From NCBI GenBank assembly GCA_902459845.2, contig CABPSV020000491.1, positions 1 through 15,195 of the forward strand: 15,195 nucleotides of DNA, in the 5' to 3' direction. The notes under the pieces are model-generated. The model made no database searches. It was not told the DNA's origin and saw nothing but the letters and a program-made list of their open reading frames with translations. A program made the position numbers and the translations under genes. The DNA is from Hepatocystis sp. ex Piliocolobus tephrosceles. Lineage: Eukaryota; Apicomplexa; Aconoidasida; Haemosporida; Plasmodiidae. Positions 4,183 to 11,101 of the stretch are shown here, piece after piece (position 1 is the first letter of the stretch; each line of letters opens with the position of its first letter).

Positions 4183-7100
4183 CTATAAATCGTTTATATA
4201 ATAGTTTTTTTTATATTGTTTTAATTCTTGAATATAATTTATAAAATTTAAAATAATTTCATTTATACCTTTATCAGAAAAAATAGGTAAAATACTATGT
4301 AATATATCATCTAGTTCAGTAATTTTTATCTCTATACTTTTGCCAATTTCATTGAACTCTTTTTTTTTTAATTTTATCAATCCGTTATATATTTTTTGGA
4401 TCTCACATAAATTGAATGGTATTTCTATGTTAATTTTATATCTGCAAAAAAAAAAAAAAAAAAAAAAAATAAATAAATAAATAAATAAAATTACTGAAAA
4501 AAAAACGGATAATTATATACATATAGATATAATACGTGATAAAATGCAAAATCATTACTATAAATATCAAACTGTGTGTTGATTCTATTATATATGTGTG
4601 TAAGTAAACTTATGTTAAAAAAAAAAAAAAAAAAAAAAAAAAAAAAATGCATGTATTTTGATAAAATAAAAAGATTACTGTTTTTGTTTTTTTATTTTTT
4701 TACCTAGCTTGGAGTATTGTTAGTAACTCTTTGTACGCAAAAATATCTAAAACAATTTTTTTTAATGATCCATTTGTTATTTGAAAAGATGACAAGTAAT
4801 TATTTAAATAGTCTTTTTCATTTTTATTAAAACAAATATAAAAAATAATTATTAACAATTCAGGTTGTAATTCAAAATTCACTTCATCATTTAATGCATA
4901 TGTATGGTTAGTATATAATGTAATTATGTAAACCCAAAGTGTATTTTTTATATAGGGGTTTATATATTTTTTTAAAATATGTATTAGGTTTATATCGTTA
5001 AGAAAAAAATAAATTTTCTCCATTTCTTTTATAGTGTTGTTAACTCTGTTACCAAAAATACGGTTTATTTTATTTAACTCGTTTATGTATATATCTCTAT
5101 TACCACTATATTGTTTTTTATTATACATATATAGGGTGTTCATAATATTGGTACTTATTAGTTTTTTAACAACCTTTTTGGAATTACGAGTCTTGTCCTT
5201 ATTGTCGAGATTATTACAGCTACTATTGTTACTGTTGTTGTTACTACTATCGTTGTTACTCCCGTCATGATGCTTATCATCAGAAGTAAGAACAGAAAAA
5301 AAATATCTATTTTTGTAATTATTCATCTGACGTGTTGATACATTAACACATTTTTTTTCGTTTTTTTTTTTTAAATACTGAGTATATAACTGTTGCTTTA
5401 TTTTTTTCATTCTTTTTAAATAAAAAATTAACTTATTTTGCAATAGATAAACATTTTCATTAAAATTGTTAGAAAGTATATTATACACATTTATACATTT
5501 GGTAGAAATGTTGCTTTTTTTTATATCTTTTGTTTTATTACAATTTTTTATTATACTTTGTTGCAATGCATCATTTAACAAGTTTATTTTTTTTATGTTA
5601 ATTTTTTTTATATATTTTTTACATAATTTAATTGGTCTATCATTTAATTCTTTTTTTTTGTATATATCGAATGTAAAGTCATGTTGTTTTGTAAATATTT
5701 TATAATTATATAAACATGAGTTCCTTTTTGTATTATTGTTGAATAAATAGTCGTAATAATTAATATTTTTATTTTTTTCTTTTATATAGTTATATAGTTT
5801 GCTATTTTTTATAACCGACTTAAAAAAATATATATTACAAATAACTAACTCGTTTCTACTGTTTATACAAACGTATAAAATATTCTCCTTTCTTTTGGTT
5901 TTATTGTCACTGTTGTTGTTTTTATTATTATGATCGATACTAGCACTATTGCTGTTGCTCTCTTTCTTCTTTTCGAACGTGTCCAATATTATATTATAGT
6001 CATTCTCTATAGATATGAATATTTTATTTTTAAAGTCATTGCTTGTATGGACTTGACGAAAAAATATGTCATATTTTTGTGTATAAAGACTTTTTAATTT
6101 TGCTTTTAATTGTGTTTTTAATTTATTATAATTAATATATAAGTTATAATACATATTTGCATAATCAACTTCAAAATATTTTTCTATTTTTGTGATATAT
6201 TTACTTAATAAATATAGTTTATATTCTTTATTATATTTTATATATTTTTTTTCATATTTATTTCTTTTTATAAAATAAAAATTAAAAAAACTATAATTAA
6301 TCCGTTCCGAAATAAAATCAAAATTTTGTTTATTCATAAAAAAATATAAATATAAAAAATCAAAGTAATTAGTGGAATAAGAAATGTTATTGAATGTATT
6401 TATAAAACTGTTTAATAATAAAAATTCATTTGTTTGTTTATATTTATAAATTTTATGAATATTTAAACAAAAGTTACTTATTGTATTATCAAGTAGGTAA
6501 TAAAACATATTTTGTTTTATTAACCTATAGCTTTTTCCATCCGTACAAACAAAAAACTTATAACTACTTAGTTTGTTTTTAATGTGTGTATTTATATCAA
6601 CTGTGAAAAGTAAGTTTTCCATTTTGGAACACTTTGTTTTTCTCACGCTTTTATTTGTTTCTTCAGCACCGATATTGTTATATACTTTAGTACTACTATA
6701 TGATGCATCACCCTTGTTATTATTACTCTTGTTATTATTATTATCGTTATTATTATTATCGTTATTATGCATGCGTGGTACTATGTGCCCCTTTTTAACA
6801 AAAGTATCAAACTTAAAGGATATTCCTCGATGGACACTCATGTGATACAAATTAAAATAAAAATCATTGATTATAATTTTATTTAAATTAGATAAATTCA
6901 AATATTGTTCATTGTATAAATTAAAAATGATTTGAAGATCTTCATACTTTGAAGGAATTAAAAAATAATTTTTTGCATTTCTTGCTAAGTTGATCAACTC
7001 GTTATTAGATAATGTATACTGTTTAAATATATTTTTAAAATTTAAAAACATAAAATATTTGATAAAATGTAATCGATACATATCTTCAGTTATAATCGTT

Positions 7101-10100: not shown

Positions 10101-11101
10101 TGTAAGGGTTTTAAAAAAATTTTTAATTTTATTTTATTTTTATTATTACTATTGCTTGTAATTTCATTTTCGACCCAGTTTTGTTTTATTTTTATTTTGG
10201 TATCTTTCTTGTTTTTTTCATCCTTTATAACGTAATCATTATTTTGTTTGCTCTTATTAAACACATCTACGTTTTTTTCGTTCTGGTATTGTTCCTTGTC
10301 ATAACGATTCATATTTAAATCATAAAATAAAAAATATATTTCTTTTAGTAACTTATGTAATTTATTAATTTCTGTATAGTTATATATACAGCTTCCTTTT
10401 ATTATATTGTACATATAAAATGTGTTACTTTTTTCATCAGCACTTTCTAAATTATTAAAACTATTTGAAATAGCAATAGCAACATTTTTTTTTTTTCTTA
10501 TATTATTCATATTTTTATTTAATAAAAAATTATCTTCGTATATATTTGGAAAGTACCATTTTTGTCTCCTAACTTTATTATTCACGTTACTGTTAAAGCT
10601 ATGCACTTTCACTTGGGTCTTAAGTTCCTCATGTCTTTTTTTGTTTTTGTTAAAAAAACAAAAAAATAATTCCTTACAGTAGTTATTATCCCATTTTAAT
10701 TTTTTAAAAAATGTATTATTTGAAAGAAAAAAAAAAAATTTTTTTTTTTTTTTGCCGCTGTTGTTGTTGTTGTTGTTGTTGTTGTTATTGTTGTTGTTAT
10801 TGTTGTTGTTGTTATTGTTGTTATTGTTGTTGTTGCTGTTGTTGCAAGAATAATTCGTCCTCCTTCTCAATGCATTAAACAAAGTTTTACCCAATTTAAC
10901 ATTTTGTTTTTTATGTAAATAAATAAAGTTATTCTTGTCTTTTCTTTCGTTTAATTTTTTACTCTTTTTATTATTATACTGTACTTTACTGTTTGATAGT
11001 AGCCATGTTCCGATTGTTTTTTTTTTAAAACTGTAACAGTCGTATTCAACATCTTTCCATATTGTGAACAGTAGGGTTAAAATGAAAATGTAATATATCA
11101 T
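4183..11101 (-). CDS. Large apicoplast-type protein with a degenerate Ski2/ISE2-like DExH helicase core (two exons)
   Basis: Exon 1 is 11101-4704 and exon 2 is 4441-4183: 2,219 codons including TAG. Residues 1-17 (MIYYIFILTLLFTIW) look like a signal peptide, and a Lys/Asn-rich segment without acidic clusters follows, as in apicoplast transit peptides. The core follows the segment order of Ski2-type RNA helicases, but the catalytic residues are gone. Residues 389-394 (GDQENG) sit where a P-loop GSGKT would be, next to a Ser tract. ILYIYKN at 507-513 fits motif Ia. IFLDNFF (636-642) stands for VVLDExH. FLCNVV (675-680) stands for LSAT. PCIYYIFD (1132-1139) fits the start of RecA domain 2. MIKIILSCIEIS (1216-1227) stands for the motif V strand. 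No QxxGRAGR motif VI is visible. Residues about 2045-2218 are helical and could be a DSHCT-like tail (NFELQPELL near 2080). Low-complexity insertions explain much of the length. RNA binding or scaffolding in the apicoplast is inferred. The helicase reading comes from manual pattern matching and could be wrong. Confidence 0.6.
4442..4703 (-). other. Intron of the large minus-strand gene
   Basis: Exon 1 would end in-frame at TAA (4700-4702), but that stop overlaps a donor: GCTAG|GTAAAA. A classic acceptor, a T run of nearly 30 followed by TTGCAG, ends at 4442. Splicing leaves two codon bases before the intron, and the first exon 2 base (4441) completes AGA, after which 85 more codons stay open to TAG at 4183. 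The intron is 262 bases and very A+T-rich, with an A run of about 30 in plus-strand orientation at 4617-4646. Confidence 0.88.
7150..7290 (-). repeat. 27-bp coding minisatellite (EQKIEKKTM)
   Basis: Within the large gene, a 27-base unit encoding the nine-residue block EQKIEKKTM repeats about four times. It is preceded in the protein by two 15-base units, EQKTI and EQKTM. Spacing is exactly 27 (CCATTG words at 7168, 7195, 7222 and 7249 on the plus strand). It sits just after the proposed RecA domain 2 (residues about 1270-1318) and probably extends a charged helix. Confidence 0.9.
7792..7960 (-). repeat. 12-bp coding array (GDNN/GHNN)
   Basis: About eleven 12-base units encode the tetrapeptides GDNN or GHNN, followed in the protein by diverged xxNNIYNN units. 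It lies at residues about 1048-1103 of the large protein, in the linker between the two proposed RecA-like halves. It is low complexity and probably disordered. Confidence 0.9.
8795..8935 (-). repeat. Gly/Ser/Asn coding microsatellite
   Basis: Alternating GGT/AGT/AAT codons encode a run of GSG and GNG dipeptides at residues about 723-769 of the large protein, after the proposed motif III region. Reading frames on the opposite strand (poly-Thr-Ile or poly-Leu-Pro) are shadows of this repeat. Confidence 0.9.
9770..9925 (-). repeat. Poly-Ser coding microsatellite (AGT/AGC)n
   Basis: Almost uninterrupted Ser codons, mostly AGT, with occasional ATT, GGT and AAT, fill residues about 393-444 of the large protein. 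The tract starts exactly where the Walker A lysine and threonine would be expected in a Ski2-type helicase. Confidence 0.92.
10758..10850 (-). repeat. Poly-Asn coding microsatellite (AAC/AAT)n
   Basis: About 29 Asn codons, mostly AAC with scattered AAT, occupy residues about 85-114, directly after the putative transit peptide. Asn runs of this kind are common in Plasmodium proteins. A KKKKKFFFF block encoded by A and T runs follows it. Confidence 0.92.

Follow-up and report, generated by a model that had tools for sequence, protein, structure and literature searches.

The window analyzed here is an AT-rich stretch of 15,195 nucleotides, contig CABPSV020000491.1 of Hepatocystis sp. ex Piliocolobus tephrosceles; the source genome comprises 611 contigs with 12.4 million bases. 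On its reverse strand lies a two-exon gene; joining exon 1 and exon 2 across a GT..AG intron gives a protein of 2218 residues (Table 1). A first-pass annotation had described this protein as one that looks like a catalytically dead Ski2/ISE2-type RNA helicase with an apicoplast leader. Here, we argue that it is probably a pseudohelicase, a degenerate RNA helicase of Ski2 type belonging to malaria parasites and near relatives, sent to the apicoplast and acting there as a platform without ATP hydrolysis. The family, the fold of the first domain, and the loss of the catalytic residues are computed here. The motif IV-V block of RecA2 matches helicases of the Ski2 type but not those of the DEAD-box type, and all 17 proteins compared have lost the ATP-binding, hydrolysis, and arginine motifs.

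Three protein searches returned 16 relatives (P0001-P0010 in the first, P0011-P0012 added by the second, and P0013-P0016 by the third), all Plasmodium by name, which together with the window's protein make up these 17. As displayed, with several names cut short, the relatives are called conserved Plasmodium protein of unknown function, hypothetical, or uncharacterized, and none of the 16 carries a precomputed Pfam domain. No relatives outside Plasmodium were found in these searches, which were limited to candidates with shared short exact words (scoring covered only 7992 and 7989 candidates in two of them and all 3543 in the third). In the protein tree, the window's gene adjoins those of the malaria parasites of rodents (96/95), followed by that of P. 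ovale (97/96); it sits on a long branch for which a long-branch warning was given, and its placement is therefore unsure. A place beside the rodent parasites would suit Hepatocystis, as this genus is nested within Plasmodium according to the available text of PMC12187015. A literature search found no paper on this gene; this search was made without the P. falciparum 3D7 identifier and is thus no proof of absence. Likewise, a search by PFAG_05413 found no paper.

Table 1. Features of the gene, with positions in the window
Feature	Residues	Position	Strand	Basis
Exon 1	1-2132, plus two bases of next codon	4704..11101	-	2133-codon open reading frame; splice site between CAAGCTAG and GTAAAA
Intron, GT..AG, 3' end T-rich		4442..4703	-	joined product aligns with C-termini of relatives
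Exon 2	C-terminal 85	4183..4441	-	aligned with 12 other rows
Leader, hydrophobic at its start, basic and acid-poor; predicted from composition to be bipartite and of apicoplast type		10802..11101	-	15/17 proteins with hydrophobic start
RecA1-like domain	330-720	8942..10114	-	model of P. vinckei relative; VIA list; hhalign 0/80 shuffles
P-loop place, without Walker A	362-380	9962..10018	-	model alignment to yeast Mtr4; 17-protein rows
ILYIYKN, motif Ia place (second RecA1 strand)	507-513	9563..9583	-	model strand E95-101; Ia assigned by eye
IFLDNFF, motif II (DExH) place	636-642	9176..9196	-	model strand E206-211 just before
FLCNVV, motif III (SAT) place	675-680	9062..9079	-	hhalign to SAT segment of Ski2 profile
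RecA2-like domain core	1125-1260	7322..7729	-	hhalign, repeated register
IYPCIYYIFD, motif IV strand		7685..7714	-	start of hhalign block, template column 255
MIKIILSCIEISFTKIKINSV, motif V region		7394..7456	-	end of hhalign block
Conserved stretch YTLSNNxxxNxxxNxxN, motif VI place or winged-helix start	1362-1384	6950..7018	-	region from motif VI to winged helix not significant
Two long helices around a beta module, possible Mtr4-type arch	~1638-1916	5354..6190	-	
Mostly helical C-terminus, at DSHCT place	1990-2218	4183..5134 (includes intron)	-	predicted helices

The evidence for Ski2-type descent comes from profile-profile comparison. Using hhalign, we compared the 17-row family alignment with a profile of 73 proteins, consisting of 71 prokaryotic Ski2-type helicases together with Mtr4 and Ski2 of the window's genome, and used 80 column shuffles as the control. 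The 71 remained from 80 Ski2 loci after removal of seven without the motif patterns and two with proteins of fewer than 600 residues. Thin columns were dropped (fewer than 7 of 13, fewer than 11, or fewer than 10 rows in successive earlier tests; fewer than 12 of 17 in the 17-row tests) and, in the later tests, a row with more than 60% gaps in a region was not used for that region. Residues 1125-1260 matched the Ski2 profile with P = 5.1e-05 and a score of 40.0 (z = 10.0), and 0 of 80 shuffles were as good (mean 14.7, maximum 22.4; reversed query 16.3, reversed template 17.3). The aligned block extends from motif IV as far as the beginning of motif V and represents a RecA2 sequence signature of the kind that marks Ski2-like SF2 helicases. 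The RecA1 region (residues 330-720) scored 26.2 (z = 4.8; shuffle maximum 24.0), again with 0 of 80 shuffles as good and with the best block at motif III. The two blocks are separate and in the correct order, and the claim of Ski2-type descent is supported. The other five regions were unremarkable, with 37 (N-terminal), 12 (linker), 13 (motif VI to winged helix), 67 (stalk), and 5 (C-terminal) of 80 shuffles as good; in earlier comparisons, a third local match, of the C-terminal region to template columns 413-439, was judged spurious.

The two blocks were also examined in other comparisons. For an earlier 13-row family, the best and the chained hhalign scores were above 60 of 60 shuffles. When the rows were divided into five disjoint groups, the RecA2 block of every group lay at template columns 255-350, to within 3 columns, and scored above 40 of 40 shuffles; RecA1 kept a nearly constant register but was weak alone (of 40 shuffles, 12 were as good in the vivax group, 7 in the rodent, 1 each in the falciparum-gaboni and avian, and 0 in the malariae-ovale-window group). 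A control profile of 15 proteins fitting DEAD-box patterns, from 30 helicase loci, failed with z = 0.0 for RecA1 and 1.7 for RecA2, whereas a random subset of 15 Ski2-set proteins still gave z = 3.1 and 4.9, respectively. The motif V region MIKIILSCIEISFTKIKINSV is aligned to motif V of the DEAD-box profile as well, but not significantly (P 0.24). Single-sequence hhalign against Mtr4 and Ski2 of the same genome was not significant (P 0.14 and 0.15) but nevertheless pointed to the regions of motifs II-III and IV-V.

All seven motif patterns occur in 73 of 73 proteins of the Ski2 set, the prokaryotic members of which were partly chosen by such patterns. The five segments on which the first-pass annotation was built lie where it placed them, at residues 507-513 (ILYIYKN), 636-642 (IFLDNFF), 675-680 (FLCNVV), 1132-1139 (PCIYYIFD), and 1216-1223 (MIKIILSC), and the DExH, SAT, and motif VI arginine motifs that it described as altered or not seen are lost in all 17 proteins compared. 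Walker A (motif I) is present at the homologous place in 0 of 17 proteins; its pattern occurs elsewhere in P0015 and P0016, at places equivalent to window residues 1321 and 984, outside RecA1. At the aligned place of motif II, 12 of 17 proteins have the aspartate, one has the glutamate, and none has both together, while a DE.[HD] pattern in four proteins maps to other places. Similarly, SAT is found at its aligned place in 0 of 17 proteins, and SAT-like patterns in four of them map elsewhere. GR.GR of motif VI is present nowhere in the 17 proteins, compared with 73 of 73 in the Ski2 set. Altogether, no catalytic motif is intact at its homologous place among the 17 proteins compared, and the few pattern matches elsewhere fall in other regions. 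The reported absence of the motif V glycine holds for the window species, which has K, but not for the family, in which 10 of 17 proteins keep it.

Within the conserved stretch at residues 1362-1384, N1371, N1375, and N1378 (6968-6991) are spaced exactly as Q, R, and R of motif VI and are kept in 17 of 17 proteins. As judged from this spacing, the three asparagines could be dead remains of motif VI or a coincidence. We did not adopt them as motif VI: the spacing fits by eye, and the best local hhalign match is the winged-helix stretch, with 13 of 80 shuffles as good.

A template-free model of the P. vinckei relative contains a RecA1 domain of the SF2 type, as in Ski2-like SF2 helicases. All 50 of the listed VIA structure neighbors of the model are SF2 helicases. 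Model range 38-263 aligns to residues 159-304 of yeast Mtr4, a range that includes beta1-P-loop-alpha1. No Foldseek match reached E 0.001 with either of two models. With the RecA1 model, Mtr4 was the top-ranked helicase, and chains of AAA+, Rho, and dehydrogenase proteins were listed too; with the second model, ribosomal and unrelated chains came first and Mtr4 stood at rank 40 (E 4.9). These results bear on the origin of the gene, which could be a duplicate of the cytosolic/nuclear Ski2/Mtr4 genes and not a plastid ISE2-type helicase. The possible arch matches Mtr4, as does the Foldseek ranking, but this likeness comes from a comparison without ISE2 or cyanobacterial sequences, and we regard a duplication as a serious contender that falls somewhat short of an even chance. 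The window's genome has two DSHCT genes, in agreement with the count in a survey of Plasmodium RNA-binding proteins, the available part of which lists two DSHCT helicases, PF3D7_0909900 and PF3D7_0602100 (PMC4630921).

A strongly hydrophobic run of 12 residues (mean 2.3-3.5) lies within the first 31 residues of 15 of the 17 proteins, and the net charge over residues 21-100 of the same 15 proteins is +10 to +19 (18 K+R versus 3 D+E in the window protein). Based on composition and general targeting rules, this leader is predicted to be of the apicoplast type, and we infer from it that the protein may be sent to the apicoplast. Judged by composition alone, the case for a signal peptide followed by a basic transit peptide, as in the first-pass annotation, is mixed, with a leader of this composition in these 15 proteins but not in P0014 and P0015.

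Several observations weigh against the reading proposed here. P0014 and P0015 lack the hydrophobic start, their gene models beginning at approximately window residues 73 and 85, and the first 100 residues of P0015 are not basic (net +2). A rule for apicoplast transit peptides asks for 9 K+N per 40 residues, and P0011 and P0012 have only 8 in their best 40. In the window protein, an acidic residue is the first charged one beyond position 20. Moreover, up to 13% of the later 80-residue stretches in the same proteins are equally basic, and thus leader charge alone is not unique. In the structure models, the RecA1-like fold was predicted but the second of the two expected RecA folds was not, model confidence there being too low. 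A DSHCT-like C-terminus is not supported by hhalign, which gave no match to a 75-sequence DSHCT profile, with 75 of 80 shuffles as good. Finally, Pfam and NCBIfam detected no helicase in the four relatives tested, and Pfam detected none in the window protein, returning one composition match and one sub-threshold row.

Part of this evidence would suit a Ski2-type pseudohelicase located outside the apicoplast, with a leader that is secretory or misread. The leader was judged by composition only, and the exceptions among P0011, P0012, P0014, P0015, and the window protein fit this alternative; by contrast, the hydrophobic start with a basic, acid-poor leader is shared by 15 of 17 proteins, and the other two models start further in. 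We consider such a location unlikely. A divergent but working helicase or ATPase, binding nucleotide through other residues, might be suggested by the motif V glycine and the motif II aspartate, each kept in a majority of the proteins; however, none of the 17 has a homologous P-loop, D and E of motif II never occur together, and GR.GR is missing altogether, making this explanation quite improbable. Least probable of all is that the helicase likeness is accidental, in an unrelated family that is confined to the genus and has a single Rossmann-like domain: the failure of ordinary searches, the mixed Foldseek list for RecA1, and the C-terminal and stalk regions without profile support speak for it, while two separate blocks in the correct order, the RecA2 register in five disjoint groups, and the SF2-only VIA list speak against it.

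A helicase profile match for the protein was thus obtained by profile-profile comparison but not by ordinary searches. With phmmer, the window protein gave composition matches against PDB, and the family profile matched 0 PDB chains. Pfam TrAA12, PDB SRP68, and most other listed chains were rejected as composition, since they fall on a Gly/Ser/Asn-rich tract at residues ~719-778. Long Ser, Gly/Ser/Asn, and Asn-Asn-Gly-Asp repeats lie between the conserved blocks at residues ~393-447, ~720-773, and ~1046-1114; they are missing or shorter in most relatives.

For the degenerate Ski2-type helicase that we favor, the motif pattern would make ATP hydrolysis impossible. On this reading, the protein would serve as a fixed platform binding the RNA or the ribosome of the apicoplast and could help transcript maturation or ribosome assembly, with energy provided by other enzymes. 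The core is positively charged (net +36 to +109), as would suit RNA binding, but this is no test of it. More tentatively, and as a possibility that we rate below even, the protein may be a Ski2-type helicase of plastid origin that lost its motor before the genus radiated and is now a fixed RNA/ribosome platform needed for apicoplast gene expression. If the proposed function is correct, this would be a large organellar pseudohelicase of Ski2 type, and a large conserved malaria protein so far named unknown function, hypothetical, or uncharacterized would gain a testable identity. A motor protein retained after the loss of its motor would also be an instructive evolutionary case.

Two other coding regions lie in the window. 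At ~3190-3830 on the forward strand, a small intron-split gene has translated pieces that match SPC12, the 12-kDa subunit of the signal peptidase complex (Pfam PF06645; E = 1.4e-18 with two exons joined into one piece). At 12409-15195 on the reverse strand, a large open reading frame of 928 codons with Asn- and acid-rich tracts is cut by the window end; Pfam gave only a sub-threshold Peroxin-13_N match (E = 0.015).

Compared with known systems, the protein resembles Ski2 and Mtr4 in its RecA1 fold, its motif IV-V block, its domain order, and a possible arch at the corresponding place; it differs from them in the lost catalytic motifs, the undetected DSHCT domain, its larger size, and its low-complexity inserts. 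Unlike Mtr4 of the same genome, it has a hydrophobic, basic leader. By description only, it can be likened to plant ISE2, a chloroplast Ski2-like helicase, in its Ski2 type and presumed plastid location; ISE2, in contrast, reportedly keeps its helicase motifs. The C-terminal cassette of Brr2 is also of Ski2 type, is regarded as inactive, and is used for protein contacts; however, the other half of Brr2 is active and the protein is spliceosomal. In the available text on yeast Utp25, this pseudohelicase likewise keeps the helicase fold while its motifs are dispensable, but it is of DEAD-box type and part of the SSU processome (PMC9539457). PriA of D. radiodurans is another known pseudohelicase (PMC4504706). 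Finally, the divergent heme oxygenase of P. falciparum is, as proposed for the protein described here, enzyme-like but divergent and retained in the apicoplast for its gene expression; its fold is unrelated and its role has been shown by experiment, and, as far as the available text goes, its requirement for apicoplast gene expression provides a precedent for the general idea (PMC11634067).
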